Source: Stichopus chloronotus
Taxonomy: Eukaryota; Echinodermata; Holothuroidea; Aspidochirotida; Stichopodidae
Direction of reading: 5' to 3'
Assembly: GCA_021234535.1 (NCBI GenBank)
Contig: CM037843.1
Location: 16,213,911-16,277,910, forward strand
DNA: 64,000 nucleotides
The notes under the pieces were generated by a model. That model made no database searches and had not been told where the DNA came from. It was given only the letters and a program-made list of their open reading frames with translations. Shown here one piece after another: positions 1,455 to 38,875 of this stretch (position 1 is its first letter; the number at the start of each line of letters is the position of its first letter). The position numbers and the translations under genes are program-made.

Positions 1455-1518
1455 CAGTAGAGGCTACAGCGCTTACACACGTTAATCCCAGACTTGTGAC
1501 AGTCAATTCTGTTGAAAA
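1455..1518 (+). repeat. left terminal inverted repeat of the giant element
   Basis: Begins CAGTAGAGGCTACAGCGCTT and runs through GTTAATCCC and TTGTGACA into the first 234-bp unit. It pairs with the reverse complement of 38821-38875. The first 31 aligned positions show about 24 identities; further in, small indels are needed. Confidence 0.8.
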
Positions 1519-4500
1519 ATTTCGAAAAAAATTCTAAGTCCCAGCTCCGTGAGGGGTGCCCGCTTTCCCATCAAATATCACAAAATGTAACCAGGGAATA
1601 GCCCCTTCTCTTAATTAAGTCTTAAAGAGGGTGTATACGAGAATGTCCGCACAAAATTTCGGGGGTCAAATCCATCAGTAAGAGGGGTCCACGGGCCCGA
1701 GAGACATACTAACTTTGCTAATTTTACCCCCATTGACTTTGCACGTAAAAGATTTTCGAAAAAAATTCTAAGTCCCAGCTCCGTGAGGGGTGCCCGCTTT
1801 CCCATCAAATATCACAAAATGTAACCAGGGAATAGCCCCTTCTCTTAATTAAGTCTTAAAGAGGGTGTATACGAGAATGTCCGCACAAAATTTCGGGGGT
1901 CAAATCCATCAGTAAGAGGGGTCCACGGGCCCGAGAGACATACTAACTTTGCTAATTTTACCCCCATTGACTTTGCACGTAAAAGATTTTCGAAAAAAAT
2001 TCTAAGTCCCAGCTCCGTGAGGGGTGCCCGCTTTCCCATCAAATATCACAAAATGTAACCAGGGAATAGCCCCTTCTCTTAATTAAGTCTTAAAGAGGGT
2101 GTATACGAGAATGTCCGCACAAAATTTCGGGGGTCAAATCCATCAGTAAGAGGGGTCCACGGGCCCGAGAGACATACTAACTTTGCTAATTTTACCCCCA
2201 TTGACTTTGCACGTAAAAGATTTTCGAAAAAAATTCTAAGTCCCAGCTCCGTGAGGGGTGCCCGCTTTCCCATCAAATATCACAAAATGTAACCAGGGAA
2301 TAGCCCCTTCTCTTAATTAAGTCTTAAAGAGGGTGTATACGAGAATGTCCGCACAAAATTTCGGGGGTCAAATCCATCAGTAAGAGGGGTCCACGGGCCC
2401 GAGAGACATACTAACTTTGCTAATTTTACCCCCATTGACTTTGCACGTAAAAGATTTTCGAAAAAAATTCTAAGTCCCAGCTCCGTGAGGGGTGCCCGCT
2501 TTCCCATCAAATATCACAAAATGTAACCAGGGAATAGCCCCTTCTCTTAATTAAGTCTTAAAGAGGGTGTATACGAGAATGTCCGCACAAAATTTCGGGG
2601 GTCAAATCCATCAGTAAGAGGGGTCCACGGGCCCGAGAGACATACTAACTTTGCTAATTTTACCCCCATTGACTTTGCACGTAAAAGATTTTCGAAAAAA
2701 ATTCTAAGTCCCAGCTCCGTGAGGGGTGCCCGCTTTCCCATCAAATATCACAAAATGTAACCAGGGAATAGCCCCTTCTCTTAATTAAGTCTTAAAGAGG
2801 GTGTATACGAGAATGTCCGCACAAAATTTCGGGGGTCAAATCCATCAGTAAGAGGGGTCCACGGGCCCGAGAGACATACTAACTTTGCTAATTTTACCCC
2901 CATTGACTTTGCACGTAAAAGATTTTCGAAAAAAATTCTAAGTCCCAGCTCCGTGAGGGGTGCCCGCTTTCCCATCAAATATCACAAAATGTAACCAGGG
3001 AATAGCCCCTTCTCTTAATTAAGTCTTAAAGAGGGTGTATACGAGAATGTCCGCACAAAATTTCGGGGGTCAAATCCATCAGTAAGTGGGGTCCACGGGC
3101 CCGAGAGACATACTAACTTTGCTAATTTTACCCCCATTGACTTTGCACGTAAAAGATTTTCGAAAAAAATTCTAAGTCCCAGCTCCGTGAGGGGTGCCCG
3201 CTTTCCCATCAAATATCACAAAATGTAACCAGGGAATAGCCCCTTCTCTTAATTAAGTCTTAAAGAGGGTGTATACGAGAATGTCCGCACAAAATTTCGG
3301 GGGTCAAATCCATCAGTAAGAGGGGTCCACGGGCCCGAGAGACATACTAACTTTGCTAATTTTACCCCCATTGACTTTGCACGTAAAAGATTTTCGAAAA
3401 AAATTCTAAGTCCCAGCTCCGTGAGGGGTGCCCGCTTTCCCATCAAATATCACAAAATGTAACCAGGGAATAGCCCCTTCTCTTAATTAAGTCTTAAAGA
3501 GGGTGTATACGAGAATGTCCGCACAAAATTTCGGGGGTCAAATCCATCAGTAAGAGGGGTCCACGGGCCCGAGAGACATACTAACTTTGCTAATTTTACC
3601 CCCATTGACTTTGCACGTAAAAGATTTTCGAAAAAAATTCTAAGTCCCAGCTCCGTGAGGGGTGCCCGCTTTCCCATCAAATATCACAAAATGTAACCAG
3701 GGAATAGCCCCTTCTCTTAATTAAGTCTTAAAGAGGGTGTATACGAGAATGTCCGCACAAAATTTCGGGGGTCAAATCCATCAGTAAGAGGGGTCCACGG
3801 GCCCGAGAGACATACTAACTTTGCTAATTTTACCCCCATTGACTTTGCACGTAAAAGATTTTCGAAAAAAATTCTAAGTCCCAGCTCCGTGAGGGGTGCC
3901 CGCTTTCCCATCAAATATCACAAAATGTAACCAGGGAATAGCCCCTTCTCTTAATTAAGTCTTAAAGAGGGTGTATACGAGAATGTCCGCACAAAATTTC
4001 GGGGGTCATATCCATCAGTAAGTGGGGTCCACGGGCCCCAGAGACATACTAACTTTGCTAATTTTACCCCCATTGACTTTGCACGTGAAAGATTTTTGAA
4101 AAAAAATTCTAAGTCCCAGCTCCGTGAGGGGTGCCCGCTTTCCCATCAAATATCACAAAATGTAACCAGGGAATAGCCCCTTCTCTTAATTAAGTCTTAA
4201 AGAGGGTGTATACGAGAATGTCCGCACAAAATTTCGGGGGTCAAATCCATCAGTAAGAGGGGTCCACGGGCCCGAGAGACATACTAACTTTGCTAATTTT
4301 ACCCCCATTGACTTTGCACGTAAAAGATTTTCGAAAAAAATTCTAAGTCCCAGCTCCGTGAGGGGTGCCCGCTTTCCCATCAAATATCACAAAATGTAAC
4401 CAGGGAATAGCCCCTTCTCTTAATTAAGTCTTAAAGAGGGTGTATACGAGAATGTCCGCACAAAATTTCGGGGGTCAAATCCATCAGTAAGAGGGGTCCA

Positions 4501-7500
4501 CGGGGGCCCGAGAGACATACTAACTTTGCTAATTTTACCCCCATTGACTTTGCACGTAAAAGATTTTCGAAAAAAATTCTAAGTCCCAGCTCCGTGAGGG
4601 GTGCCCGCTTTCCCATCAAATATCACAAAATGTAACCAGGGAATAGCCCCTTCTCTTAATTAAGTCTTAAAGAGGGTGTATACGAGAATGTCCGCACAAA
4701 ATTTCGGGGGTCAAATCCATCAGTAAGTGGGGTCCACGGGCCCGAGAGACATACTAACTTTGCTAATTTTACCCCCATTGACTTTGCACGTAAAAGATTT
4801 TCGAAAAAAATTCTAAGTCCCAGCTCCGTGAGGGGTGCCCGCTTTCCCATCAAATATCACAAAATGTAACCAGGGAATAGCCCCTTCTCTTAATTAAGTC
4901 TTAAAGAGGGTGTATACGAGAATGTCCGCACAAAATTTCGGGGGTCAAATCCATCAGTAAGAGGGGTCCACGGGCCCGAGAGACATACTAACTTTGCTAA
5001 TTTTACCCCCATTGACTTTGCACGTAAAAGATTTTCGAAAAAAATTCTAAGTCCCAGCTCCGTGAGGGGTGCCCGCTTTCCCATCAAATATCACAAAATG
5101 TAACCAGGGAATAGCCCCTTCTCTTAATTAAGTCTTAAAGAGGGTGTATACGAGAATGTCCGCACAAAATTTCGGGGGTCAAATCCATCAGTAAGAGGGG
5201 TCCACGGGCCCGAGAGACATACTAACTTTGCTAATTTTACCCCCATTGACTTTGCACGTAAAAGATTTTCGAAAAAAATTCTAAGTCCCAGCTCCGTGAG
5301 GGGTGCCCGCTTTCCCATCAAATATCACAAAATGTAACCAGGGAATAGCCCCTTCTCTTAATTAAGTCTTAAAGAGGGTGTATACGAGAATGTCCGCACA
5401 AAATTTCGGGGGTCAAATCCATCAGTAAGAGGGGTCCACGGGCCCGAGAGACATACTAACTTTGCTAATTTTACCCCCATTGACTTTGCACGTAAAAGAT
5501 TTTCGAAAAAAATTCTAAGTCCCAGCTCCGTGAGGGGTGCCCGCTTTCCCATCAAATATCACAAAATGTAACCAGGGAATAGCCCCTTCTCTTAATTAAG
5601 TCTTAAAGAGGGTGTATACGAGAATGTCCGCACAAAATTTCGGGGGTCAAATCCATCAGTAAGAGGGGTCCACGGGCCCGAGAGACATACTAACTTTGCT
5701 AATTTTACCCCCATTGACTTTGCACGTAAAAGATTTTCGAAAAAAATTCTAAGTCCCAGCTCCGTGAGGGGTGCCCGCTTTCCCATCAAATATCACAAAA
5801 TGTAACCAGGGAATAGCCCCTTCTCTTAATTAAGTCTTAAAGAGGGTGTATACGAGAATGTCCGCACAAAATTTCGGGGGTCAAATCCATCAGTAAGAGG
5901 GGTCCACGGGCCCGAGAGACATACTAACTTTGCTAATTTTACCCCCATTGACTTTGCACGTAAAAGATTTTCGAAAAAAATTCTAAGTCCCAGCTCCGTG
6001 AGGGGTGCCCGCTTTCCCATCAAATATCACAAAATGTAACCAGGGAATAGCCCCTTCTCTTAATTAAGTCTTAAAGAGGGTGTATACGAGAATGTCCGCA
6101 CAAAATTTCGGGGGTCAAATCCATCAGTAAGAGGGGTCCACGGGCCCGAGAGACATACTAACTTTGCTAATTTTACCCCCATTGACTTTGCACGTAAAAG
6201 ATTTTCGAACAAAATTCTAAGTCCCAGCTCCGTGAGGGGTGCCCGCTTTCCCATCAAATATCACAAAATGTAACCAGGGAATAGCCCCTTCTCTTAATTA
6301 AGTCTTAAAGAGGGTGTATACGAGAATGTCCACACAAAATTTCGGGGGTCAAATCCATCAGTAAGTGGGGTCCACGGGCCCGAGAGACATACTAACTTTG
6401 CTAATTTTACCCCCATTGACTTTGCACGTAAAAGATTTTCGAAAAAAATTCTAAGTCCCAGCTCCGTGAGGGGTGCCCGCTTTCCCATCAAATATCACAA
6501 AATGTAACCAGGGAATAGCCCCTTCTCTTAATTAAGTCTTAAAGAGGGTGTATACGAGAATGTCCGCACAAAATTTCGGGGGTCAAATCCATCAGTAAGA
6601 GGGGTCCACGGGCCCGAGAGACATACTAACTTTGCTAATTTTACCCCCATTGACTTTGCACGTAAACGATTTTCGAAAAAAATTCTAAGTCCCAGCTCCG
6701 TGAGGGGTGCCCGCTTTCCCATCAAATATCACAAAATGTAACCAGGGAATAGCCCCTTCTCTTAATTAAGTCTTAAAGAGGGTGTATACGAGAATGTCCG
6801 CACAAAATTTCGGGGGTCAAATCCATCAGTAAGAGGGGTCCACGGGCCCGAGAGACATACTAACTTTGCTAATTTTACCCCCATTGACTTTGCACGTAAA
6901 AGATTTTCGAAAAAAATTCTAAGTCCCAGCTCCGTGAGGGGTGCCCGCTTTCCCATCAAATATCACAAAATGTAACCAGGGAATAGCCCCTTCTCTTAAT
7001 TAAGTCTTAAAGAGGGTGTATACGAGAATGTCCGCACAAAATTTCGGGGGTCAAATCCATCAGTAAGAGGGGTCCACGGGCCCGAGAGACATACTAACTT
7101 TGCTAATTTTACCCCCATTGACTTTGCACGTAAAAGATTTTCGAAAAAAATTCTAAGTCCCAGCTCCGTGAGGGGTGCCCGCTTTCCCATCAAATATCAC
7201 AAAATGTAACCAGGGAATAGCCCCTTCTCTTAATTAAGTCTTAAAGAGGGTGTATACGAGAATGTCCGCACAAAATTTCGGGGGTCAAATCCATCAGTAA
7301 GAGGGGTCCACGGGCCCGAGAGACATACTAACTTTGCTAATTTTACCCCCATTGACTTTGCACGTAAAAGATTTTCGAAAAAAATTCTAAGTCCCAGCTC
7401 CGTGAGGGGTGCCCGCTTTCCCATCAAATATCACAAAATGTAACCAGGGAATAGCCCCTTCTCTTAATTAAGTCTTAAAGAGGGTGTATACGAGAATGTC

Positions 7501-8307
7501 CACACAAAATTTCGGGGGTCAAATCCATCAGTAAGAGGGGTCCACGGGCCCGAGAGACATACTAACTTTGCTAATTTTACCCCCATTGACTTTGCACGTA
7601 AAAGATTTTCGAAAAAAATTCTAAGTCCCAGCTCCGTGAGGGGTGCCCGCTTTCCCATCAAATATCACAAAATGTAACCAGGGAATAGCCCCTTCTCTTA
7701 ATTAAGTCTTAAAGAGGGTGTATACGAGAATGTCCACACAAAATTTCGGGGGTCAAATCCATCAGTAAGTGGGGTCCACGGGCCCGAGAGACATTACTAA
7801 CTTTGCTAATTTTACCCCCATTGACTTTGCACGTAAAAGATTTTCGAAAAAAATTCTAAGTCCCAGCTCCGTGAGGGGTGCCCGCTTTCCCATCAAATAT
7901 CACAAAATGTAACCAGGGAATAGCCCCTTCTCTTAATTAAGTCTTAAAGAGGGTGTATACGAGAATGTCCACACAAAATTTCGGGGGTCAAATCCATCAG
8001 TACGTGGGGTCCACGGGCCCGAGAGACATTACTAACTTTGCTAATTTTACCCCCATTGACTTTGCACGTAAAAGATTTTCGAAAAAAATTCTAAGTCCCA
8101 GCTCCGTGAGGGGTGCCCGCTTTCCCATCAAATATCACAAAATGTAACCAGGGAATAGCCCCTTCTCTTAATTAAGTCTTAAAGAGGGTGTATACGAGAA
8201 TGTCCACACAAAATTTCGGGGGTCAAATCCATCAGTAAGTGGGGTCCACGGGCCCGAGAGACATACTAACTTTGCTAATTTTACCCCCATTGACTTTGCA
8301 CGTGAAA
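1519..8307 (-). repeat. left subterminal array, about 29 copies of a 234-bp unit
   Basis: The landmark TTCGAAAAAAATTCTAAG recurs every 234 bp from 1521 to 8078; 28 periods account for 6552 bp and single-base indels for 5 more. Copies are almost identical. Variants include a diverged unit near 3951-4184, a 2-bp insertion near 4505, and 1-bp insertions near 7796 and 8030. A G-to-A change (gtccgcac to gtccacac) clusters in units near 7500-8206, with one more near 6330. The unit contains the palindromes CTTAATTAAG, TTTTCGAAAA and CGGGCCCG. It is reversed relative to the array at 35205-38820. A 65-codon frame in each unit is judged non-coding. A likely role is transposase binding at the element ends. 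Confidence 0.95.
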
Positions 8308-9790
8308 CTTTTCGTTGTCAAATCCATGGATAAGTGTCTCCTTTAAGATTAATCTTTACCGTTTAAACGTAAAGATATTTTATCCTATTGTACATAAAAA
8401 ATATATAAATTTAAAAGACACTTTGGACATACCTGTCCTTTTTCAACGCTTTACGGGAAGTGACAGGTCACGCAATGTATGAAGTAGTCGTGTGGTTTCA
8501 AACCCTTGGGAGGACGCTCAAAGGAAAACCAAAGTTATTACAGATGAGTCACTTTTTTAGTCTTGTATTGGTACATGGGTAGATTATAGAATGATGGTTT
8601 TGGTCCTGGGAATTGCTTGGTTACGGAAATTTGTTGATTTTGAAAAATGTGTTTTCTTTTTTTTAGGCCTGCATTGTGAACTTAAACTTTCGACCTACAT
8701 AGTAGTCTTTCTGGCTTGGGTAAAATCTTCGGTAACAGGAGCCAATGTGGTTAAAAGAAATGTTAACATCCCTTTTGCACTGTCGTGGTCTTAACAAGTA
8801 CATACAACGTTGGAGCAGTTTCTAACAAGTCTCGGTGCCGTAGAGAGGTGCATTTACACGGTGCCTATTCTGAAACAATAAGAAAATATACAGAAACGCA
8901 ATAAAAGAAAGTCAAACTGGGAGGTTTGTTACTTCATTCAATTTTCATGTAAAACAAATGATATCAAAACCAGTTTGTAGTTTAAACACCTTAACTTGAA
9001 TATATCTAAAAGGCTTCAAACTATGACCTCGTGTGATCTTTAGCCATCATGAGAAAAAAAAAAGATACCAGGTAGCACCGTACATCATCAAGAGGTATGG
9101 TGCTTATACATGCCTACAGTTTGTAATAGAGCCATATGACATAAAAGGAATACATTAGCATTAAATGACATGTAAGTGTTTTATATTCGCAATCTTATTT
9201 GTATAGTCTTTATTCAATGGATGATAAGGTCACTTTCATTTGTGTCAAATCGCCACAATCTTGGTAATGCGATTTTCAATACAAAGGTCCACTTCCTATG
9301 CAACTAGGGCCTTTGTATATACATATATCTCTATGGTTGTGTTCCAACCATCAGCAATTGTGAATGTACAGCAGACTGAGATAGTCCAATTCTGCAAGTT
9401 TGGTGCATATCGGTATAATGTACTAATGATTTGCATGTATTGTACGGAAACAGGGGGGAACATCTGACTTGGAGCGTGTGATTTCTTGCTTCAGTTCCTT
9501 GGGGTTTGATCAAACTTTATGGTTAAATAAAACAACTTTACAATTTTTTTTTTGTTCCATATTCAAACCCAATATTTGGTCTCAGTATGATGTGATTTAA
9601 TGTGATAGAACTCTGAAAATCACACATGCTTAAACTTGCATGGACGAAGAAGATGGACATTGAAGAAATCCTCCTCAGTGATGTATCTATTTTCTTTTAA
9701 ATGTAACCAATCACAGGTTTGGGATGATTCGGTTGTATTACCTGTGATTTCCATTGCGGTGATTGGTCAGTTGTTTGACTTGAACCCGTC
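8308..9790. other. spacer between left array and gene promoter
   Basis: The first bases look like a decayed fragment of the 234-bp unit ('tcaaatccatggataagtg' near 8319-8337). Beyond that I see only short open frames and no further repeats. It presumably holds upstream regulatory sequence for the gene starting at 9918. Confidence 0.4.
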
Positions 9791-9793
9791 ATG

Positions 9794-9800
9794 TATAAAG
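9794..9800 (+). promoter_or_regulatory. putative TATA box (TATAAAG)
   Basis: TATAAAG lies about 120 bp upstream of the proposed start codon at 9918. That would place transcription initiation near 9825 with a 5' leader of roughly 90 bases. It is a single motif, so it is suggestive only. Confidence 0.4.
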
Positions 9801-9917
9801 AAGGTACTATACGGCATTGCCAACAGTTCTCTTTTGAACTTGAATCTTAACTCAATAAAGCACGATTTAGTTGCACATTTTTGCATCATTTAATTGATAA
9901 AATCCATTTCGCGTAAC

Positions 9918-10088
9918 ATGTCACGTCGTGTTGAAAACATCGGATCATCGACAGGGAGGTGTCGAAAAAGGATTGTTCCTGATTTCAATCGGCGTGGAAC
10001 CGGGAAAAGAGGAAAAGTCCGAAGTTATCCGTTTGGTATCAACGGGAAGCAGAATCTCTCTCGAATGATCCAGGAGAAAGGTGACAGA
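9918..10088 (+). CDS. exon 1: basic N-terminal segment
   Basis: ATG at 9918 opens 57 codons rich in Arg and Lys (MSRRVENIGSS..., RRGTGKRGKVR), resembling a nuclear localisation signal. It ends AGA before the donor GTGAGT in phase 0, matching exon 2. The ATG is preceded by a TATA-like box. No domain is recognised. Part of the 9918-32284 gene. Confidence 0.6.
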
Positions 10089-25000: not shown

Positions 25001-28000
25001 CATATAGCAGGGTGTCGTTGTTACATGGTTCTGACTCAAAACAGTTGTGATATTATTTTTATTAGGTTGAAGAGGCAGCCTCACTACCAAACTTTGCGAC
25101 AGCCACTGTACCATCCCCTTACAATAACAACGATGGAACTGAGAGGTAATTGTATGCGAGGGATTTAACTGGTGGTAGTTGCGAAACAAAGTTCGCCCCG
25201 AATCATTGATTTTATACATCAATTTGTGTTGAAGCATCTTCCTTTCATCTGTATTACACACATGCACGCAGCTCATTTGTCTCCAGTAAGGAGAAAAGCT
25301 GTAAGCAACCAACATGAGAATGCTAAAATGGAACCTTTGCACATTGTCCCATCAATCTCAAACGTAATATAGCTGTTCCACCTTGACGGAGAAACTTGCC
25401 CCTGCAATTATACAAATGGTAAATGACAGCAACAGCTACAACAGTGTAAAAGCTGTGGGAGACCGCATGTAATGACCTAAGCTACACATGTGCTCAACTT
25501 ACCGTATAGCATTTCTGTAACTGCATTGTTTTGGGTAGCCTTACATGTAGAGGTTCCCACATGACAGCATTCACCTGTCGTACGGATGAATTTCCATTTT
25601 TGTGCTACCCAACCTTGCGAAGCATTATAGTAGAAGATTGCCACTTAAATTGTGCCCATAGCACCAACAATGGTAAATCAGAGACTCTGAGCATGATATA
25701 GCTTAAAGGGGAAATCAGGGTTTATTTTACAATTCCCCGCCGGTATCATACAATGAGTTATCACTAACAAATATGATCAAAATTATCCCAAAACATGTGG
25801 ACAATTTCGAGAAACGAGTAAATTCGCAACAACAAAAAGAAAAAAAATCGGTGAAGAACTGCGAAAGTCTGTAACATCCATATTCATCGAATCAAATATG
25901 AGTATTCAATACTATCGCCTTTTCAAGGTATGAGGAGGTGTGACTGAACACTTTCATACGTAGAATACGTATGTTGTATGTATCATCAATTGTCACTAAA
26001 CTCTTTTTACTTAGCATTGCGCAAACGCACGAACCGTAAACGCGAACCGTAAACATTTGGTTATGTTTATTCATATAGCGTCATCTCAGTCTTACGCTGT
26101 GATCGGTCGTCGTATAGGAAAGGCTGTCTTGTCTTGTACATGAACGTTTATTTTTTGTACCCGACAAATATTAAGAGTTCTCATTCAACAGTAATTAACG
26201 CAATAATTACCGTTTCTTCTAACTTCAAACACCTCCCCAACGTCACTATATTTCGGTGAACAATCAGTTTAGAAAGAAAAATCAACTAAAGGTGAATTTT
26301 CTCAGTCAAACCCTGATTCCCCCTTTTAACCAATGACATTTGACTTTAATATTTGCATTTGCAGTTACTGGGTTCCATTGGGGAAAGAAGAGGCGTGGAT
26401 CACAGATGTTGCAAAGAATGCGATTTTCAGCAAAGATCGGCAGGAATGTGACCTGTGCCCCGGCAAGTACTTTAAACGAAATTCAGAGTTAAAACGGCAT
26501 CTACGTAAATTACATTTACATGGGGGTATCAAAGTTGGGAAGTTTTGGTCTGTGTTGTGTAAGAGATGCAAACATAATGGAAGTAATGAATATATAGGCT
26601 ATCATTACCATTGTTACTTTTGTAAAAAAGTGATAAGAAGGAAAATTGATTTCACGTCTCATGCTAGTATTTGCTATAAGGAAGAGCTTACCTGTGATGG
26701 AAAGAATGATGTGAGAAGTAGTGAAGGCATAAAAGACCATGACGTTGTAGACGACGATCACAAAGATAATGCCGATGATAGCGAGGTTTTGGTAAGTCTG
26801 GATAGCAGTGGTAGTGATGATAACAGTGAGGAAGAAGGAGATCCCAAAGGCCAAGGTTGCAAAGAAGTTAACAGGCCAGCAAATGCTGGGGGAAATGACG
26901 TGGATAAAGTCAAGAAAGGTAAGGTAGGGGTAGAAAGTACTGAGAGCTTAGACAGCCAAGACAATGATCAGATAGAGGATGTTTACAACAAAGAAGGTAG
27001 TGACGTCGATAGCGGCAGTGAAGGTAATTTTAAGAAAGGTAAGATAAAAATAGGAAATCCTGACACCGTGGACAGCCAAGACACTGACATGGAAGAGGAA
27101 GGTGGGAGCGAAGGAGGATATGATGTAGAAAGCGGAAGTAGAAGTAATGCTAAGAAAGGTAAGATTCAAACTGGAAGTCCTGACACCATGGACAACCGAG
27201 GCATTGACATGGAAGAGGAAGTTGAGAGCGAAGGAGGATATGACTTTGAAAGCGGAAGTATAGGTAATGCTAAGAAAGGTAAGATTCAGATTGGAAGTCC
27301 TGACGCCATGGACAGCCAAGACACTGGCAGGGAAGAGGAAGTTGAGAGAGAAGGAAGATATGATGTAGAAAGCGGAAGTAGAAGTAATGTTAAGAAAGTT
27401 AAGATTCCAATTGGAAGTCCTGGCACCATGGACAGCCAAGACACTGGCAGGGAAGAGGAAGTTGAGAGCGAAGGAGGAGATGACGTTGAAAGCGTAAGTA
27501 GAGGTAATGCTAAGAAAGGTGAGATTCAAAGTGGAAGTCCTGACACCGTAGACAGCCAAGACACTGACAGGGAAGAGGAAGTTGAGAGCGAAGCAGGAGA
27601 TGACGCGTTTAGTGGCAGCAGAGGTAATGTCAAGAAAGGTAAGATACAAACAGGAGACCCTGACACCTTTGCCACCCAAGGCACTGACATGGAAGAGGAA
27701 GTTGAGAGCGAAGGAGGAGATGACGTTGAAAGCGTAAGTAGAGGTAATGTTAGGAAAGGTAAGATTCAAATTGGAAGTCCTTGCACCACGGACAGCCAAG
27801 ACACTGGCAGGGAAGAGGAAGTTGAGAGCGAAGGAGGAGATGACGTTGAAAGCGTAAGTAGAGGTAATGTTAGGAAAGGTAAGATTCAAATTGGAAGTCC
27901 TGGCACCATGGACAGCCAAGACACTGGCAGGGAAGAGGAAGTTGAGAGCGAAGGAGGAGATGACGTTGAAAGCGTAAGTAGAGGTAATGTTAGGAAAGGT

Positions 28001-31000
28001 AAGATTCAAAGTGGAAGTCCTGGCACCTTGGGCAGTGAAGACACTGACAGGGAAGAGGAAGTTGAGAGCGAAGCAGGAGAAGACGCGGTTAGTGGCAGTA
28101 GAGGTAATGTTACGAAAGGTAAGATACAAACAGGAAATCCTGGCACCTTGGACAGCCAAGGCACTGACAGACAAGAGGATGTTGAGAGCGAAGGAGGAGA
28201 TGACGTCCATAGTGGCAGTAGAGGTAATGTTAAGAAAGGTAAGCTACAAAGAGGAAGCCCTGACACAGTGGACATCCAAGACACTGACAGGGAAAATGAT
28301 GTTGACAGCGAAGAAGTAAATGAAGTGGATAGCGGAAAAAGAAATAAAGTAAAAAGGGGTAAGATAGAGAAAGTTAGGACAATTCGTCGAAAGTACTTGA
28401 GACAAAAGTGTTCTGAGTGTGGGCTAATTATGTTAAAAGTGAATCTGAAGAGACATCTAAGATCCAAACATGGCTTAAGTATGTGTAATAACGGTGTATG
28501 TGTTGATCACGTTGACTCCATCTTCTTCGTTCGGAAAACTGCCAGAGGTGTTGATTATCCACTTCATGTGCAAAGGAAACTACATGACGCGAACCCAATA
28601 GTTTTTTGTGAACAAAAGCAGTGCATGATTGACATTAATGTTGCAAGGAACAGCAAGTATAGATCATATCAATGTGAACACTTACAAAAAGTAGACTCAT
28701 GCACACTTAGTCCGAAGATAGTCTCCTTATCTGATATGTCGCTAAAGGAATTGTCATATGATGGACAACATAAACTTTTGTCTGCAACTACTCTAAAAAA
28801 GGTGGCAGATTTATGCAAAGAATCCACAAAGCATGGTAAACATCTGATAGTAGCATTCCCAAGCACTAAAACCCGATATCAACACTTCTCGGTTTTTAAT
28901 AATAGCCGGGAGTATTACGCTCGACTAGGCAGATGTGTTGTTACATACGATAATGTCAGTAACTCGTTACATTGTAGCTGCTGCAAACAAGGTAGGTCAT
29001 GTGTACATAAAGCTGTATGTTTGTGGTACCTCAAAGAGTGTAATTGTCTTGCAAATATAAATCTAAATGAAGATAGTTACTCTGTCGACGACGTTTTGTA
29101 TCCACCAGTAGATGAAGTTAAAATAAAATCAATGTGCTCCTATTTGAAGAGACACAAAAGCATTCCATGGCCCATTCCATCTGCATACATAAATATTGCT
29201 GGCACTTATCCATCTGAATTTATTCCTTCAGAAACACATTGCTCGGCATGTGGACACCGATTGTCAGGACCAATAAAGATATCCGACAAAGCCACTCTGT
29301 TAACATCCAGAGGACTACTTCGTGGAATCCAGACATATTGTAAAGTTTGCTTGCAGTGCGAATTACCGTACAGATACCAAGAAAGTTCTGAAGGTGTTCA
29401 CAACTACAACGACATATTTTTGGTGTCTATACAAATGCTTGATCGTTTGGAGAAAGGACTTGAATGTTCCATTGCCCTTGGACGACACACGGACCTTATT
29501 AATAAGCAGTTAAATACTGATATAAGACCACAGAATATAATTAATAGTTTCCTGCATTTCCAAGCACTTTGTGCACGGTCTTACCCCTTCCATTGTGTAG
29601 TTTGTGGATATCATCCAGAGGTAGTAATATTAGACGTCGACAAAAAGGGCGCGTTCCATTGTGACATAGCAGAGTTGGAACTACCCGAAGAAACAGATGG
29701 ACATGACAAAGTGGATTGTGATCAGTTTTGGGCAGATGTGGAATTAAATTTATTGGCCACTGGTTTATTAGGTCACTCCCAGAAGAATCCGTTTGACATT
29801 GTGCCATCATATACATATTGGTCTCCATATATTGGAAGAAACACGAGAAATTCTAACACCATCCTGAACACAGAACACAAAAAGATTCACAGAGGAACCG
29901 GTCTCTTGGAAGATGACGCGCGTGAGTTTACTCAGGAAAGACTTATCGAGTTACTGCATGGTAGTAATCTTCCCTACATTAGACAAATTGGACGGGACAT
30001 TGGTATCAGAGGTACATCTAAAATGTCCAAATTGGACATAATCAGGAAAATCAGAGACACTTTGATTAGGGACAAGACGAAGTTCAACAAAATATTTTCT
30101 AAAATGCAGGGCTGTACTGGAGGTTGGGGCTCAATGGTTTGTCCACACGGTGTAGTTTATGCAACAAAATTTCTGGTTCGTGCGGAAAGTCCACGTGACA
30201 TCGTGGATTTACTTATGTCTATGGAACATCTGCCGAATATTGTTATTGTGGATATGGCCCACATGGTTGTTGCCCACGGTAACAAGAGGTTTCCTGATAT
30301 GTTTCATCCGAATGAAGGAATGCTTGCTGAGCCATCTGCTTATACTATTAGGTTGGTAAAAACAAACAATTTTCAGAAGAGTCTGCCATGGCTTGAAGAG
30401 GGGATAAGTGCTGATGACGTTGACAACAGTCAGGTCCACCCAGTTACCGGCAGCGCAGAGCACTACTGCCTTTTTGATAGACTGCATGAAAAGAATACCA
30501 ACGCAGAATTTGAAGTCCTTCGCAGGGTTCAGTTTGTTCCTGAGTTGTTCGGAAAGGTGAACACACAAGCACAAGAACAACTGCATAGTGAAATTAATAA
30601 GAGCAATTATTTTTTAACCCAGATGTCACCTGTGAAGCATATATTCTTATTTAGGAGCATATTAGACCTGAGGAACAGAGCATTAAATCAAAAGCAATTA
30701 CAAAGCCTGCAAAAGGCCATGGGACACCCACTGACATTTAATTCTCTTGGGAAAGTTATAATGGATATCGGAATTTCCCCTACACCAGACTCACATAACC
30801 ACAAGTTTGATCGGGATGATGACGCAACTGACAATCGGAGAGACCTCGACAGAAAGGAAAAACAAAATGAAAATAACCATAGAGGTGAATCAATAAGACC
30901 ACAACCAGACAGACCTACAGACCTCAAAAATGATGAAGAAGCAAACATGAAGAGAAAGCGTAAGCCTTTGAGCGAGGCAACTTCAAGTAAGGGAGGTAAA

Positions 31001-32284
31001 AGATCAAGAAAAGGAAAGAAAAAAACAAGTCAACCGAATAAATGGATACCCCGTCTTGGGCTCACTGACAACGATAGGCAGATACTGCTTGATCGAACAT
31101 GGCTGAATGACCTTATAATAAATGCAGGGCAGAAATTACTCAAGGAAAAGTGTGGTGTTGGAGGGTTGCAAGACACATTGCTCACGCGATCAGTTGGGTT
31201 TGTTCCAGAATCTTGTGAATTTGTACAAATAGTCCACATACGAAATTCACATTGGGTAGTCCTGAGTAACATTGGAATGTCCTCTCCAAATGTGTCATTA
31301 TTCGACAGCAAGTTACCTGGTAGATTCTCATATCCGTTAGAAATTGTTGAAGCTGCAGCTAGCCTTTTGCACACTAAAGAAAGACAAATGTTTATTCACA
31401 TAATGAATGTAAATCAACAAAGTGACGGCTCTTCCTGTGGAGTTTATGCGCTTGCTTTCGCCGCATCGCTTTGCGCTGGTCAAGACCCGACTAAGATAAA
31501 CTATGACGAGCACAGCATGTGGCAAGGTCTCCTAAGTAATCTATCAAATGGGCAGATGATACCGTTCGGCATACGATCTTCGGACCGATCTGGGAGAAGG
31601 AGACTACGTGTTTTGACAGAAAAGATCTATTGCACGTGTAGGAGACCTGATGACGGAAGGAAAATGCACCATTGCGCAGTATGTAAAGAATGGTTTCACG
31701 AGGCATGCGTAGATCGCGTAACTAGAAGAGATTTTTACTGCTTACACTGTCGGGGTAGGTTAAGTAAGATAACAGTTGCAGAAAGCAAGGAGAGAATGTA
31801 CAACATCAAGTCGGCAGCTGATTTACTAGCATTTGGACGCTATTATGGGGTTCACAAGTGGCAGGCTCCCGCGGAGGAAATATATAACTTGGTTAATAGA
31901 GTTGCCTTAAACAGTACGTTTCCGGCCGCGAGTGAAAAGTTAGTGGTAGTAGAAAACCTACCCGAACATTTAAAAACTACTATTAAAGGATTAACAATGT
32001 CACGACAGGGGGTTGTTGGTGATTTTGACTTCATTTTACTCTATGGAAGGGTGCATCTGACATGTATAACATTGTACGAAACTCTTGTACATGAAATGGC
32101 CCATGCAAAAGCAGCCTTTGATGGTTATGGCTCAAATACTCACGGGGATTACTACAGGAAGGTAGGTAAGAAAATGATTAAGTCATTAAATAAACACTGT
32201 TCTGCGGCCCCGATAAAAGACATCGTAAATCTCAAACTAAAGGATAATATTTTAAACGCATTTGCCGTGGAACATTTCACGTGA
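9918..32284 (+). CDS. SGNH hydrolase-zinc finger-KDZ transposase-Ulp1-PHD-SprT fusion protein, 9 exons
   Basis: Proposed join: 9918-10088, 15058-15183, 16061-16213, 16640-16901, 21113-21200, 21936-22083, 24773-24865, 25066-25145, 26365-32284 (7041 nt, 2346 codons plus stop). Every junction has an AG acceptor and GT donor, and phases agree throughout (0,0,0,1,2,0,0,2). Exon 8 ends with AG and exon 9 supplies the T of the AGT serine codon. Order of parts: basic N-terminus (1-57); SGNH hydrolase (58-237; Ser65, Asp207, His210); acidic linker; C2H2-type fingers (from 402); 40-residue repeats (about 552-1032); third finger; SWIM-like and CxC clusters; KDZ-like core (Asp1464, Asp1670, Glu1778); Ulp1 protease (His2003, Asp2021, Gln2059, Cys2065); PHD (about 2130-2169); SprT-like (His2283, Glu2284, His2287, His2300). 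It is the only recognisable gene in the element and presumably mobilises it. The first intron (5 kb) is the least certain join. The ATG at 26333 lies upstream of the acceptor and is probably not used. Confidence 0.8.
10089..15057 (+). other. intron 1 (5.0 kb)
   Basis: Runs from GTGAGT to a pyrimidine-rich tract ending in AACAG. It contains a 14-G run near 10557 and several A or T runs. Open frames up to 117 codons (11089-11442) are interrupted by homopolymers and resemble nothing known. An unrecognised small exon cannot be excluded. Confidence 0.5.
15058..16901 (+). CDS. exons 2-4: SGNH/GDSL-type hydrolase module
   Basis: Exon 2 (15058-15183) encodes LIFGDSQLRP, the block I nucleophile motif with Ser65, followed by a Gly-containing segment. 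Exon 3 (16061-16213) encodes VVFLSVGTNNL, the block III Gly/Asn motif. Exon 4 (16640-16901) encodes GDGVHLS, the block V Asp-x-x-His pair (Asp207, His210). The strand-loop order and spacing fit a compact SGNH esterase/lipase fold of about 180 residues with all catalytic residues present. Acceptors are preceded by strong pyrimidine tracts in exons 2 and 3. Substrate is unknown. SGNH domains are known in ORF1 of some CR1/L2-type retrotransposons, but I know of no established fusion to a KDZ transposase. Confidence 0.8.
18394..19927 (+). mobile_element. Helitron-like non-autonomous element, copy A
   Basis: The left end is TTTTTGATTCCTTGCC plus a self-complementary GCC...GGC. The right end has GCAAGGAATCA, then the hairpin AAAGCC-TTTT-GGCTTT immediately followed by CTGG. 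A 3' hairpin followed by CTRR is the Helitron signature. The interior has minisatellite-type sequence (18460-18560, 19715-19860) also found in copy B. The boundary and class are inferred from the match with copy B at 57494-59827. It sits in intron 4 of the large gene. Confidence 0.45.
19151..19704 (+). pseudogene. BEL/Pao-type LTR-retrotransposon gag relic
   Basis: Three overlapping reading frames together resemble a retrotransposon gag N-terminus: MSERMEEAKILRRNHNL (frame of 19151), a coiled-coil-like Glu/Lys-rich stretch (19221-19481), then ELPKAEIPPYDGDPRTFWSF with LSSDEVRLRYLIQLTTGK (19450-19650). The last is the typical start of the DUF1759/Pao-gag region. Frameshifts and stops separate the parts and no protease or polymerase follows, so it is dead. 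It lies inside Helitron-like copy A, as a captured fragment or an older insertion. Confidence 0.6.
21113..25145 (+). CDS. exons 5-8: linker between hydrolase and zinc-finger/transposase part
   Basis: Exon 5 (21113-21200) starts GKLARPQMPP and is basic. Exon 6 (21936-22083) encodes VMIEVAGVLVAVKARQLVYR, then a charged tail. Exon 7 (24773-24865) encodes an acidic stretch (SQEEEDKFWKSAQIF). Exon 8 (25066-25145) ends PYNNNDGTE plus two bases of a split codon. Each has a clean acceptor and donor, and their phases chain only in this order. No domain is recognised. The segment probably links the N-terminal hydrolase to the DNA-binding part. Confidence 0.7.
21325..21376. repeat. TA-rich microsatellite in intron 5
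   Basis: Alternating TA runs interrupted by 'catgtatgtatg', able to fold back on itself. It lies in intron 5 (21201-21935), which otherwise shows nothing. Confidence 0.8.
22732..23070 (+). repeat. diverged internal copy (about 1.4 units) of the 234-bp repeat
   Basis: Alignable by eye to the right-array orientation: 'gacatttt', 'ggttacattttgtgat', 'gaagctgggttttttt', 'gagcccgtggatcc', 'atgattgatttgccccc', then a second 'ccctggttaaatttgcga'. Many substitutions and a poly-C expansion separate it from the arrays. It is an old copy not touched by array homogenisation. Confidence 0.75.
23870..24240 (-). repeat. minisatellite-family fragment
   Basis: Contains 'tttgacctccaacaaaatctataggagtcttgtac' and 'ttgaccccttttgaccccaaatgatctttggcatccacc', the reverse complement of the unit seen at 57600-58270. 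About two to three diverged units. Confidence 0.6.
25707..26325. mobile_element. TTAA-flanked MITE in intron 8
   Basis: Flanked by TTAA at 25703-25706 and 26326-26329. The left end AGGGGAAATCAGGGTTT and the reverse complement of the right end (AAGGGGGAATCAGGGTTT) form a terminal inverted repeat of about 17 bp with one indel. The 619-bp interior has no coding potential. TTAA targets suggest a piggyBac- or Kolobok-type parent. It fills most of intron 8 (25146-26364), ending 39 bp before exon 9. Confidence 0.7.
26365..32284 (+). CDS. exon 9: zinc fingers, charged repeats, KDZ core, Ulp1, PHD, SprT
   Basis: One uninterrupted 5.9-kb exon encodes 1973 residues with stop TGA at 32282-32284. The acceptor TTTGCAG at 26358-26364 lies inside the open frame and restores the split serine codon from exon 8. 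The absence of stops or frameshifts over this length, with every catalytic motif kept, indicates a recently functional gene. Apart from the internal 120-bp repeats there is no sign of degradation. Confidence 0.85.
26444..26700 (+). other. zinc fingers 1 and 2 (C2H2 and C2HC-like)
   Basis: CDLCPGKYFKRNSELKRHLRKLH is split by a C-x2-C (Cys402, Cys405) and H-x4-H (His419, His424) arrangement, a standard C2H2 finger. It is followed by LCKRC and then HCYFCKKVI...SHASIC, which looks like a second, atypical C2HC finger. A DNA-binding role, perhaps at the 234-bp repeats, is inferred. Confidence 0.7.
26900..28375 (+). repeat. 12 in-frame 120-bp repeats (40-residue charged repeats)
   Basis: The codons for a KKGKIQ-like motif recur every 120 bp at 26902, 27022, 27142 and so on to 28342. 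Each 40-residue unit has a basic patch (KKGKIQ), then G-S-P-x-T-x-DSQDT, then a Glu-rich acidic run (REEEVESEGGDDVES). Central units are nearly identical and edge units are diverged, which suggests repeat expansion. Because 120 is a multiple of three, the antisense strand is also open here; that frame is treated as an artefact. Function is unknown; an extended, disordered, charge-alternating region is likely. Confidence 0.9.
28403..29370 (+). other. third C2H2 finger, SWIM-like and CxC cysteine clusters
   Basis: KCSECGLIMLKVNLKRHLRSKH near 28403-28470 is a second clear C2H2 finger. At 28973-29020 LHCSCCKQGRSCVHKAVC has the CxC...CxH pattern of SWIM fingers. Around 29240-29370 HCSACG is followed about 40 residues later by YCKVCLQC, a paired-cysteine cluster like the 'CxC' clusters associated with KDZ transposases, and like vertebrate HMGXB3-type proteins as far as I recall. 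The family assignment is from memory. Confidence 0.6.
29560..30690 (+). other. KDZ-type transposase core (RNase H-like), with SAP-like segment
   Basis: A Cys pair and Pro-rich turn (FHCVVCGYHPEVVILDVDKKG) place an Asp (residue 1464) at the end of a hydrophobic strand. A second Asp (1670) ends the strand NIVIVDMAH. A Glu (1778) sits in QAQEQLHSE, followed by helices (NYFLTQMSPVKHIFLFRS). This D...D...E layout with the preceding cysteine motif matches the KDZ transposase family. Within it, near 29930-30075, LPYIRQIGRDIGIRG...SKLDIIRKIRDTL looks like a SAP-type DNA-binding helix pair. The triad assignment is by eye. Confidence 0.65.
31050..31570 (+). other. Ulp1/SENP-like cysteine protease domain (C48)
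   Basis: WLNDLIINAGQKLL at the start matches the substrate-binding region of Ulp1-family proteases. The catalytic set is present: His2003 in NSHWVVLSN, Asp2021 in VSLFDSK, Gln2059 and Cys2065 in QQSDGSSCGVYALAFA. The family cleaves SUMO or ubiquitin-like proteins or viral/transposon polyproteins. Here it could process the fusion protein or remove host SUMO; both are inferences. A basic linker (MKRKRKP, KGGKRSRKGKKK) precedes it. Confidence 0.85.
31628..31755 (+). other. PHD finger
   Basis: YCTCRRP...HHCAVCKEWFHEACV...FYCLHC gives a C4-H-C3 ligand pattern with the Trp typical of methyl-lysine-reading PHD fingers (KEWFH). It suggests chromatin binding, perhaps for target-site choice. It lies directly between the protease and the SprT-like domain. 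Confidence 0.85.
31800..32281 (+). other. SprT-like zinc metallopeptidase domain (C-terminus)
   Basis: ETLVHEMAHAKAAFDGYGSNTHGDYYRKVG contains HExxH (His2283, Glu2284, His2287) and a third His (2300) followed by Gly, the arrangement of SprT/Spartan-type proteases. The upstream segment (LLAFGRYYGVHKW...NSTFPAASEKLVVVENLP) fits the N-terminal part of the fold. SprT/Spartan proteins cleave DNA-protein crosslinks. A role in releasing bound transposase or repairing transposition intermediates is speculative. Confidence 0.7.
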
Positions 32285-33640: not shown

Positions 33641-34800
33641 TTGATCCTAAACGACCTTTGACCTCCACCTAAACGTTAAGGCTTCTCGTGCTTCATAAGC
33701 TTCATTTACCAGTATGACATACATGTGCAACTTATACCTAGTGACATATTGTGCTTACAAAATTTCACAACGTGATTCTGCAGAGTGACAAAGGATATTT
33801 GACCTCCACCAAAAGCAATGGGGCCTTTTGTGCTCAATAACGGTCACGCACATAACTTAAAACGAGATTTGTAAAAGCTTTCCATATTGAGATGTTGTGC
33901 TTTCATTTTTTTCACTGTTTGACCATGTTGACCCATAAATGACCTTTGACCTCCACTCACAAAGATTATTCTTGTCCTTCATTATGCACAGAAACACACC
34001 AAATATGACATCGATAAAAGTTTTCCTTCTTGGAATATTGCGTTTACAATGTTTTTAATATATAAGCTCTGACGATCTGAAATGACCTTTGACCTTCAGC
34101 GAAGCAATAGGCTTCTTGCACTACATATGTTACACCAAAAAAAATCAAATATGAGATCAATGAAAGATTCCTTTCTTGAGATGTCACGTGTACAAAGTTT
34201 ATAATATTTGACCCGTTGATCCCAAATGACCTTTGACCCTAATTACAGTGATGGGCTTCTTGACCTCGATTAGATTCATCCATAAACTAAACATGAGATA
34301 TGTACAAGATTTCCTTCTTAGAATATCATGATTTCACTATGTGACCCCTGTGGACCCTGATTGACCTTTGGCCCCCACCAAAAGCAATTGGCTTCTTGTA
34401 CTAAGTATGGTACACGTAAAGACCATATATGAGATCTGTACATGCTCCCCTTCTTTAGATATCGTGTTTACAGTGTTTTCACTACTTTGCCAATGTTCCC
34501 AATTAAACTTTGACCTCCACCAAAAACTATAGTCTCCATTAAACTCCTTGTGCTAAATATGGTACACCCACATACCAAATATCAGATCTGTACATCCTTT
34601 CCATCCAAACATTGACCTCTATCAAAATCAATGGGCTTTTGTATTCGGTAAGGCTCACCAACATACTAAATATGAGATTTGTACAAGCTTCACATATTAA
34701 GATATTGTGTTTACGGTGTTTTTACTTTTACGCTATTAACCCGAAAATGACCTTTAACCATTGGCAAAAACAATAGGCTGCTTGTCCCTCGTAAGATACA
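33640..34800 (-). repeat. minisatellite array, diverged units of roughly 115-125 bp
   Basis: About nine or ten diverged units carrying 'gacctttgacctccaccaaaa..caataggcttcttg...' and 'gatattgtgtttacaa'. They are the reverse complement of the family at 57600-58270 and 32390-32900, so opposite orientations flank 32.9-33.6 kb. It lies between the gene and the right 234-bp array. Confidence 0.75.
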
Positions 34801-35204: not shown

Positions 35205-38200
35205 ACCCCCCCCCCCCGAAATTTAGTGTGGACATTTTCGTATACCCCCTCTTTAATACTTAATGAAGAAAAGAGGCTATTCCTAGGTTACATTTCGTGA
35301 AATTTGTTTTTTTAATTTTTTCACGTGCAAAAGTCAATAGGGGTAAAATTGACAAAATTAGTAAGTCTCTCCGTGGGCCCCACTTATCGATGGATATGAC
35401 CTACGACAGTTGGTGTGGACATTTCGTATACACTCTCTTCAAGACTTTATGGAGAAAAGGGGCTATTCCCTGGTTACATTTTGTGATATTTGATGGGAAA
35501 GCGGGCACCCCTCACGGAGCTGGGACTTAGAATTTTTTTCGAAAATCTTTTACGTGCAAAGTCAATGGGGGTAAAATTAGCAAAGTTAGTATGTCTCTCG
35601 GGCCCGTGGACCCCTCTTACTGATGGATTTGACCCCCGAAATTTTGTGCGGACATTCTCGTATACACCCTCTTTAAGACTTAATTAAGAGAAGGGGCTAT
35701 TCCCTGGTTACATTTTGTGATATTTGATGGGAAAGCGGGCACCCATCACGGAGCTGGGACTTAGAATTTTTTTCGAAAATCTTTTACGTGCAAAGTCAAT
35801 GGGGGTAAAATTAGCAAAGTTAGTATGTCTCTCGGGCCCGTGGACCCCTCTTACTGATGGATTTGACCCCCGAAATTTTGTGCGGACATTCTCGTATACA
35901 CCCTCTTTAAGACTTAATTAAGAGAAGGGGCTATTCCCTGGTTACATTTTGTGATATTTGATGGGAAAGCGGGCACCCCTCACGGAGCTGGGACTTAGAA
36001 TTTTTTTCGAAAATCTTTTACGTGCAAAGTCAATGGGGGTAAAATTAGCAAAGTTAGTATGTCTCTCGGGCCCGTGGACCCCTCTTACTGATGGATTTGA
36101 CCCCCGAAATTTTGTGCGGACATTCTCGTATACACCCTCTTTAAGACTTAATTAAGAGAAGGGGCTATTCCCTGGTTACATTTTGTGATATTTGATGGGA
36201 AAGCGGGCACCCCTCACGGAGCTGGGACTTAGAATTTTTTTCGAAAATCTTTTACGTGCAAAGTCAATGGGGGTAAAATTAGCAAAGTTAGTATGTCTCT
36301 CGGGCCCGTGGACCCCACTTACTGATGGATTTGACCCCCGAAATTTTGTGCGGACATTCTCGTATACACCCTCTTTAAGACTTAATTAAGAGAAGGGGCT
36401 ATTCCCTGGTTACATTTTGTGATATTTGATGGGAAAGCGGGCACCCCTCACGGAGCTGGGACTTAGAATTTTTTTCGAAAATCTTTTACGTGCAAAGTCA
36501 ATGGGGGTAAAATTAGCAAAGTTAGTATGTCTCTCGGGCCCGTGGACCCCTCTTACTGATGGATTTGACCCCCGAAATTTTGTGCGGACATTCTCGTATA
36601 CACCCTCTTTAAGACTTAATTAAGAGAAGGGGCTATTCCCTGGTTACATTTTGTGATATTTGATGGGAAAGCGGGCACCCCTCACGGAGCTGGGACTTAG
36701 AATTTTTTTCGAAAATCTTTTACGTGCAAAGTCAATGGGGGTAAAATTAGCAAAGTTAGTATGTCTCTCGGGCCCGTGGACCCCTCTTACTGATGGATTT
36801 GACCCCCGAAATTTTGTGCGGACATTCTCGTATACACCCTCTTTAAGACTTAATTAAGAGAAGGGGCTATTCCCTGGTTACATTTTGTGATATTTGATGG
36901 GAAAGCGGGCACCCCTCACGGAGCTGGGACTTAGAATTTTTTTCGAAAATCTTTTACGTGCAAAGTCAATGGGGGTAAAATTAGCAAAGTTAGTATGTCT
37001 CTCGGGCCCGTGGACCCCTCTTACTGATGGATTTGACCCCCGAAATTTTGTGCGGACATTCTCGTATACACCCTCTTTAAGACTTAATTAAGAGAAGGGG
37101 CTATTCCCTGGTTACATTTTGTGATATTTGATGGGAAAGCGGGCACCCCTCACGGAGCTGGGACTTAGAATTTTTTTCGAAAATCTGTTACGTGCAAAGT
37201 CAATGGGGGTAAAATTAGCAAAGTTAGTATGTCTCTCGGGCCCGTGGACCCCTCTTACTGATGAATTTGACCCCCGAAATTTTGTGCGGACATTCTCGTA
37301 TACACCCTCTTTAAGACTTAATTAAGAGAAGGGGCTATTCCCTGGTTACATTTTGTGATATTTGATGGGAAAGCGGGCACCCCTCACGGAGCTGGGACTT
37401 AGAATTTTTTTCGAAAATCTGTTACGTGCAAAGTCAATGGGGGTAAAATTAGCAAAGTTAGTATGTCTCTCGGGCCCGTGGACCCCTCTTACTGATGAAT
37501 TTGACCCCCGAAATTTTGTGCGGACATTCTCGTATACACCCTCTTTAAGACTTAATTAAGAGAAGGGGCTATTCCCTGGTTACATTTTGTGATATTTGAT
37601 GGGAAAGCGGGCACCCCTCACGGAGCTGGGACTTAGAATTTTTTTCGAAAATCTTTTACGTGCAAAGTCAATGGGGGTAAAATTAGCAAAGTTAGTATGT
37701 CTCTCGGGCCCGTGGACCCCACTTACTGATGGATTTGACCCCCGAAATTTTGTGCGGACATTCTCGTATACACCCTCTTTAAGACTTAATTAAGAGAAGG
37801 GGCTATTCCCTGGTTACATTTTGTGATATTTGATGGGAAAGAGGGCACCCCTCACGGAGCTGGGACTTAGAATTTTTTTCGAAAATCTTTTACGTGCAAA
37901 GTCAATGGGGGTAAAATTAGCAAAGTTAGTATGTCTCTCGGGCCCGTGGACCCCACTTACTGATGGATTTGACCCCCGAAATTTTGTGTGGACATTCTCG
38001 TATACACCCTCTTTAAGACTTAATTAAGAGAAGGGGCTATTCCCTGGTTACATTTTGTGATATTTGATGGGAAAGCGGGCACCCCTCACGGAGCTGGGAC
38101 TTAGAATTTTTTTCGAAAATCTTTTACGTGCAAAGTCAATGGGGGTAAAATTAGCAAAGTTAGTATGTCTCTCGGGCCCGTGGACCCCTCTTACTGATGA

Positions 38201-38820
38201 ATTTGACCCCCGAAATTTTGTGTGGACATTCTCGTATACACCCTCTTTAAGACTTAATTAAGAGAAGGGGCTATTCCCTGGTTACATTTTGTGATATTTG
38301 ATGGGAAAGCGGGCACCCCTCACGGAGCTGGGACTTAGAATTTTTTTCGAAAATCTTTTACGTGCAAAGTCAATGGGGGTAAAATTAGCAAAGTTAGTAT
38401 GTCTCTCGGGCCCGTGGACCCCACTTACTGATGGATTTGACCCCCGAAATTTTGTGTGGACATTCTCGTATACACCCTCTTTAAGACTTAATTAAGAGAA
38501 GGGGCTATTCCCTGGTTACATTTTGTGATATTTGATGGGAAAGCGGGCACCCCTCACGGAGCTGGGACTTAGAATTTTTTTCGAAAATCTTTTACGTGCA
38601 AAGTCAATGGGGGTAAAATTAGCAAAGTTAGTATGTCTCTCGGGCCCGTGGACCCCTCTTACTGATGGATTTGACCCCCGAAATTTTGTGCGGACATTCT
38701 CGTATACACCCTCTTTAAGACTTAATTAAGAGAAGGGGCTATTCCCTGGTTACATTTTGTGATATTTGATGGGAAAGCGGGCACCCCTCACGGAGCTGGG
38801 ACTTAGAATTTTTTTCGAAA
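35205..38820 (+). repeat. right subterminal array, about 15 copies of the 234-bp unit
   Basis: TTCGAAA recurs from 35538 to 38814, exactly 14 periods of 234 bp with no net indel. At the inner edge 35205-35460 is a clearly diverged unit with a C run. The sequence is the reverse complement of the left array, and both arrays stop at the same phase (ttcgaaa) toward the element ends. Variants include C-to-T (gtgcgg to gtgtgg) in units near 37988, 38221 and 38455, and the pair gaatctg/gatgaatttg in consecutive units near 37190-37500. Confidence 0.95.
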
Positions 38821-38875
38821 TTTGTCACAACATTCTTTCGGGATTTAACCTACGCAAGCGCTGTAGCCCCTTCTC
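38821..38875 (-). repeat. right terminal inverted repeat of the giant element
   Basis: The reverse complement begins GAGAAGGGGCTACAGCGCTT and continues through GGTTAAATCCC and TTGTGACA into the 234-bp array, mirroring 1455-1518. Confidence 0.8.

Follow-up and report, generated by a model that had tools for sequence, protein, structure and literature searches.

A 37-kb DNA transposon in Stichopus chloronotus with inverted terminal repeat arrays, an invertible core and a predicted multidomain transposase

A stretch of 64,000 nucleotides from the genome of Stichopus chloronotus (C15:16213911-16277910, hereafter called the window) contains a DNA transposon of 37,421 bp, which duplicated 8 bp of the target site on insertion and for whose movement a predicted DDE-type transposase of its own is likely responsible. 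A first-pass annotation, made from the letters of the window, had described a complete 37-kb DNA transposon with an 8-bp duplication and repeat-built inverted ends; empty sites and additional copies elsewhere in the genome bear this out. The positions of all features are listed in Table 1.

The duplicated sequence ACTTATCC was found on both sides of the element exactly where it had been annotated. An inverted terminal core, GGCTACAGCGCTT, occupies positions 1462-1474, and its reverse complement positions 38856-38868; no further exact copies are present in the window. Both cores lie 7 bp inside their ends, in agreement with the annotated terminal inverted repeats (TIRs) at equal distance from the duplications. 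Four of the outer seven bases are identical between the ends (CAGTAGA on the left vs. GAGAAGG on the right). By chance, 64 kb of random sequence would contain an exact 8-mer combined with an equally offset inverted 13-mer about 0.0005 times.

The window's own assembly (719 Mb, 267 contigs) was searched for empty sites and further copies. The empty-site query consisted of both flanks joined with one ACTTATCC left between them (102 bp). It was identical at 102/102 positions to C102:1407-1508 and to C13:2087320-2087421, and its four genome matches were made up of these two complete sites and two halves at the window. An empty site with a single ACTTATCC, which the annotation had proposed to look for, thus turned up twice. 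Over 1,001 bp the C102 site was 100% and the C13 site 99.9% identical, the latter with a single gap and no mismatches. Because uninterrupted flanks with one ACTTATCC exist at two other places, insertion of the element is directly evident. Flanks and empty sites are almost without differences, which suggests on sequence grounds that the insertion was recent.

Two additional pieces of contig C102 (957 and 500 bp) were 100% identical to the window flanks. The 500-bp piece is offset by 50 bp relative to the window flank and, therefore, an insertion or deletion lies between the two pieces. The 100 bases preceding the window are N (an assembly gap), and the window starts straight after them. Contig C102 (36.7 kb), which carries one of the empty sites, begins at the same base as the window; C13 extends further. 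C102 may represent the other allele of the window locus, or C102, C13 and the window may be recent duplicates.

Copies of the ends, for which a genome search had also been suggested, were sought with queries of 84 bp (left) and 78 bp (right); the match counts are lower bounds. The left end was found at at least 38 genomic places and the right end at at least 32 (window included). Most other left-end matches (33/37) begin at the position equivalent to 1455 or up to 6 bases earlier, and 30 of the 31 other right-end matches stop either at 38875 or no more than 8 bases beyond it. Left and right ends could be paired in 25 copies (window included), while 13 left-end matches stayed unpaired. Among the paired copies, the duplication was perfect (8/8) in 22, matched at 7/8 bases in two and was missing in one; of the 24 copies with at least 7/8, 22 have a duplication ending in a pyrimidine. 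Copy sizes range from 106 bp (C4) to 37.4 kb, with 11 copies below 7 kb, 11 copies of 8.5-10.4 kb, and three of 22.6, 26.6 and 37.4 kb. The annotated term 'giant' is hence appropriate for the window copy but not for this kind of element, as 22 of 25 paired copies do not exceed 10.4 kb.

The 106-bp copy (L027; C4:272036-272536) has both termini and an 8/8 duplication but no array, and it is centred exactly within a palindrome with 12/12 scored arm positions matching. A preference for palindromic targets was considered and rejected: flank symmetry was 0.320 vs. 0.286, a value reached by 154 of 2,000 shuffles and thus not significant.

The oppositely oriented 234-bp arrays of the annotation were recovered by Tandem Repeats Finder. 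Left and right arrays have the same majority unit (0/234 differences), and both carry variants at positions 120 and 154 of the unit. Units identical to the majority unit account for 18/29 on the left and 6/15 on the right, the innermost unit being the most divergent one on either side. Deep in the core, a lone stretch resembling the array unit (69%) is oriented as the right array; it may be left over from an older end or from a nested insertion. In addition, a degenerate repeat of approximately 145 bp is common to the core (33600-34800, 23890-24080, 18440-18560) and the right flank (57600-58300), and a similar one, judged by eye, is located near copy L073 of the second family described below.

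The transposase-like gene that had been placed between the arrays corresponds to an open reading frame (ORF) of 1,984 amino acids with a CxC4 cysteine cluster and a predicted DDE-like core. Eight proteins related to it were retrieved at E≤0.001, the best being from Holothuria leucospilota (61% over the searched region). In the nine aligned proteins the first candidate aspartate is present in eight (P0008 lacks it), and the second aspartate and the glutamate are present in all nine. The Peptidase_C48 match of the ORF remained below the Pfam cut-off. A profile of the C-terminal part, compared with PDB, matched SENP1 (3.4e-9), Ulp1 and PHD fingers. The model of this part (pLDDT 63.5) gave four Foldseek matches at E≤0.001, three of which are Ulp1 or SENP5 and the fourth another protein of the same broad fold. 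The Ulp1-type residues, the cysteines and histidine of the PHD finger and the HExxH...H motif are kept in 5/5 aligned proteins shown, and PF10263 (SprT-like) matched five of nine aligned proteins at E≤1, window included. A genome protein search with a 1,302-residue query (residues 683-1984) yielded 53 matching stretches from the best 36 of 191 candidates that were scored; among the matches listed, the window copy is the sole stretch that spans residues 683-1984 stop-free.

Table 1. Features of the transposon in the S. chloronotus window and two copies of the second family.
Feature	Position	Strand	Details
Element as a whole	1455..38875		37,421 bp
Left target-site duplication copy	1447..1454	.	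8 bp, ACTTATCC; single copy at two empty sites
Right target-site duplication copy	38876..38883	.	ACTTATCC
Left terminus	1455..1474	+	CAGTAGAGGCTACAGCGCTT; genomic left-end matches
Right terminus	38856..38875	-	GAGAAGGGGCTACAGCGCTT on minus strand; genomic right-end matches
Left array	1520..8314	+	29 units of 234 bp; Tandem Repeats Finder (29.0 copies)
Right array, inverted	35314..38820	-	15 units of 234 bp; Tandem Repeats Finder (15.0 copies)
Degenerate inner unit adjoining right array	35213..35306	-	87%
Degenerate array-unit copy within core	22764..23075	-	69%; E 9e-26
Predicted SGNH/GDSL exon 1, from an ATG	9918..10088	+	GT donor, phase 0
Predicted SGNH exon 2	15058..15183	+	FGDSQ
Predicted SGNH exon 3	16061..16213	+	GTNN
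Predicted SGNH exon 4	16640..16901	+	GDGVH; 45% to P0001
Transposase-like multidomain ORF	26330..32284	+	1,984 amino acids (stop to stop)
In-frame acidic coding repeat	26951..28337	+	120 bp (40 amino acids), 11.6 copies; Tandem Repeats Finder
CxC4 cysteine cluster	29213..29455	+	residues 962-1042; Pfam PF18717, E 7.7e-8, above cut-off
DDE-like core (candidate)	29633..30577	+	D1102, D1308, E1416; inferred from conserved columns
Ulp1/SENP-type cysteine protease	31232..31495	+	H1641, D1659, Q, C1703; profile, Foldseek, conserved residues
PHD finger	31622..31753	+	PDB profile PHF2, Spp1, BPTF
SprT-like metalloprotease motif	32069..32182	+	HEMAH...H; Pfam PF10263 below cut-off in window
Second-family copy	C15:30910226-30919514		starts CAGAAGAGGCTACAGCGCTTACACC; 229-bp inverted arrays; AACATTCA both sides
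Second-family copy	C15:5240146-5248242		GATTAATC flanks both sides

Near transposase relatives of approximately 56-67% identity, a second family with 229-bp inverted arrays was found, whose left terminal core is that of the first family. In the copy C15:30910226-30919514 the right end reads GTCTACAGCGCTA, with two of 13 bases changed. Eight genome matches were obtained with the left end of this second family. The array-ended design was seen in three of four transposase relatives inspected (C15:30.91, C15:5.24 and C13:21.8), and long inverted ends composed of tandem repeats, the structural mark of foldback elements, are present in both families. An ORF of this kind is present within array-ended elements in both families, which argues against the view that it is cargo and that the elements are moved solely by another, unseen transposase. 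Pfam revealed no other transposase among the interior ORFs scanned (63 of 118 with at least 60 amino acids). In favour of the cargo view, most mapped first-family copies lack most of the ORF, and catalysis by its product is a prediction; this explanation is nevertheless judged highly improbable, and the ORF is taken to encode the transposase.

As left and right termini differ, the orientation of the core relative to the ends can be read in individual copies. To this end 17 of the 25 paired copies plus the window were mapped. Two short mapped copies had no core match and seven short or other copies were left unmapped, leaving 16 that were scored. For segment 32583-33385, several copies showed a mixture of partial matches in the two orientations, and the best match was taken as decisive. 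The core was inverted in four of the 16 first-family copies (C2:7.56, C12:28.07, C15:45.29 and C6:22.63). In the second family, the transposase is on the opposite strand in two of seven left ends with a nearby match (C15:5.24 and C11:25.66); no transposase is listed for the eighth left end.

The core of C2:7.56 is 99.3-99.5% identical to that of the window, with 21371-29158 missing. Its divergent innermost units are inverted along with the core, and therefore the exchange point lies inside the arrays. Copies C12:28.07 and C15:45.29 are sisters (support 1.000) with flipped cores and perfect but different duplications. They are best read as the product of one inversion followed by movement, and because their duplications differ, the flipped form is probably mobile. 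Parsimony calls for at least three separate inversions, namely one in C2:7.56, one in the ancestor of C12:28.07 and C15:45.29, and at least one within the second family. Inverted repeats trouble assemblers, and the window adjoins an assembly gap; flipped cores might accordingly be assembly errors caused by the long inverted arrays, or else reflect lineages founded in opposite orientations. Either origin appears unlikely, given that the flipped C12:28.07 and C15:45.29 have just 2-3 counted units per side and are phylogenetic sisters, that the inner junction units of C2:7.56, with a core nearly identical to the window's, moved too, and that flips occur in both families. Genuine inversion of the core is hence the preferred reading.

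Array length also differs between closely related copies. Copies C6:7.90 and C21:1.27 have cores that are 99.4% identical in the aligned part and lengths of 22.6 vs. 10.4 kb; C6:7.90 has 22+43 units, and C21:1.27 has 5-7 per side within the partial stretch examined. As these near-identical cores come with a roughly twofold difference in element length, the sequences indicate that the arrays lengthen fast. In C2:7.56, a C52G variant that is absent among the window's listed variants is present in 9/12 left and 3/5 right units.

The core further contains four predicted exons of an SGNH hydrolase upstream of the large ORF, with GT donors in all four and AG acceptors in exons 2-4. Joined, they matched Lipase_GDSL_2 above the Pfam cut-off. 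Exon 4 had four genome matches, two in copies of the first-family element and two located 3.2 and 7.0 kb upstream of transposase relatives on the same strand; none of its matches was in the second family. The H. leucospilota protein combines an SGNH part and a transposase part in a single gene model. On the basis of the genomic pairings and this joint model, SGNH and transposase parts are seen to travel together in these cases, as far as sequence can tell. The sole database relative of the joined exons in the search was P0009 (Lytechinus variegatus LOC121414325; 33%).

The element had been annotated as KDZ/Zisupton. This assignment holds in part: the CxC4 cluster is present above the cut-off, and 8-bp duplications are reported for Zisupton and Dileera in the excerpted text of PMC12730594, but the KDZ transposase model PF18758 matched none of the nine aligned proteins at E≤1. 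At the same threshold CxC4 was detected in five and CxC7 in one of the nine (window included). A search of the genome with PF18758 (11 candidates scored) gave six matches, all at three other loci. These loci (C22:13173607, C17:18314490 and C5:28094484) show an almost identical arrangement of matching pieces and apparently represent a separate KDZ family of S. chloronotus. Because the KDZ model fails on the element's proteins though it finds other loci in the same genome, the element is assigned to a separate lineage, here called new, that is of CxC4 type and combines array-built ends with an invertible core. It resembles TIR transposons of the cut-and-paste kind, has ends of the foldback type, and is near KDZ but not a clean KDZ/Zisupton member. 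That it is instead a canonical but giant KDZ (Zisupton/Dileera) element, whose size stems solely from array growth and intron-rich cargo, is a serious possibility though not the favoured one; the cysteine clusters, the 8-bp duplications and the TIRs speak for it, and the behaviour of PF18758 speaks against it. Most foldback transposases seem to be Mutator according to the excerpted account in PMC4079207; no Pfam match to Mutator was obtained in the large ORF or in the interior ORFs scanned.

Size and extra genes could also point to a giant element of viral descent, as Maverick/Polinton and Teratorn are. Such an origin is regarded as extremely improbable, since neither the large ORF nor the 63 scanned interior ORFs (of 118 with at least 60 amino acids) matched a polymerase or capsid protein, and the array ends and 8-bp duplications argue against it. 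Weak single Pfam matches to Pox_C7_F8A (0.0018), PIF1 (0.026) and an arterivirus NSP11 domain (0.023) were taken as chance. Among viral contigs, 40 pattern matches contained no relatives by tblastn.

Several observations weigh against the interpretation of the element as a self-mobilizing transposon of an array-ended lineage. Besides the lack of PF18758 matches, the AlphaFold model of the DDE-like region was poor (pLDDT 43) and was not used. Matching duplications are missing in the first-family copy C7:22.1 and in the second-family copy C13:21.8, which has both ends and arrays, and the relative C5:4.26 shows neither arrays nor termini within the 20 kb examined. Homology between the 229- and 234-bp units was rejected (score 20.5; shuffles with a mean of 8.6 and up to 29.5). 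Likewise, general homogenisation of left and right arrays was dismissed, and exchange between them is not general: the left-right distance was smaller than the between-element mean in just three of 13 copies (window, C2:7.56 and C15:45.29).

In the mechanism proposed, the 1,984-residue protein would recognise the 20-bp termini and probably also repeated sites in the 234-bp units, pair both ends, excise the element and join it to staggered target cuts. Recombination between the inverted arrays would flip the core while the termini stay put, and unequal exchange between arrays would lengthen or shorten them. More speculatively, once the element has integrated, the Ulp1-type and SprT-like protease domains might trim SUMO or protein bound to the DNA; the SGNH hydrolase might be a co-mobilised partner. 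A doubtful but far-reaching idea is that the elements form a new cut-and-paste superfamily in which expandable inverted arrays act as landing sites and recombination arms, with two mobile isomers and self-clearing SUMO/SprT proteases. If this were true, the arrays would multiply the landing sites of the transposase and repeatedly turn the gene-bearing core round, and the SUMO protease and the SprT-type DNA-protein-crosslink protease of the giant protein would serve to remove that protein itself from the DNA after integration.

Array-ended (foldback) elements can be hard to place when coding partners are missing, Tetris being an example (PMC4079207, excerpted text). With coding members of two array-ended families now available, together with empty sites and dozens of copies, it becomes directly testable what terminal arrays do in transposition, how fast arrays grow and how transposon cores invert. 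Their protein unites a transposase-like core with Ulp1-type, PHD and SprT-like domains. A search of the literature on KDZ/Zisupton, SGNH and core inversion, covering titles and the opening parts of abstracts and few subscription papers, found no described counterpart, and no earlier account of a KDZ-type transposase joined to Ulp1 and PHD domains turned up in it.

Among known systems, the KDZ superfamily is similar in its CxC4-type cluster, 8-bp duplications and, as far as the candidate residues of the present element go, DDE-like residues (PMC12730594, in the text excerpted). The present element differs from it not only in the KDZ-model result but also in its huge protein with Ulp1-type, PHD and SprT-like domains, its array-built ends, a core found in both orientations, and SGNH exons. 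Tetris, a foldback element of Drosophila virilis, shares long inverted ends with tandem repeats of about 220 bp as well as array growth, and its duplications measure 8-10 bp; as far as the excerpted report goes, it is non-autonomous, with no conserved ORFs and no transposase found (PMC4079207), whereas the element described here is coding and occurs with a flipped core. Galileo, a member of the P superfamily in Drosophila, has long, repeat-bearing inverted ends, and binding sites of the THAP domain were identified within its terminal repeats (PMC3688188, abstract), but its transposase belongs to a different superfamily. Teratorn, the piggyBac-herpesvirus fusion of medaka, is likewise a DNA element of giant size that has long inverted repeats, and an 80-kb inversion of the middle part sets its two subtypes apart, a precedent for inverted cores (excerpted in PMC6431247); it has a different transposase type, and no viral genes were found in the ORFs scanned here. 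Finally, an SGNH hydrolase gene on a DNA transposon is reported for a platyfish Helitron that captured it (PMC4021074); that element is of another transposon class, while in S. chloronotus SGNH exons are found at four places upstream of relatives of the transposase.

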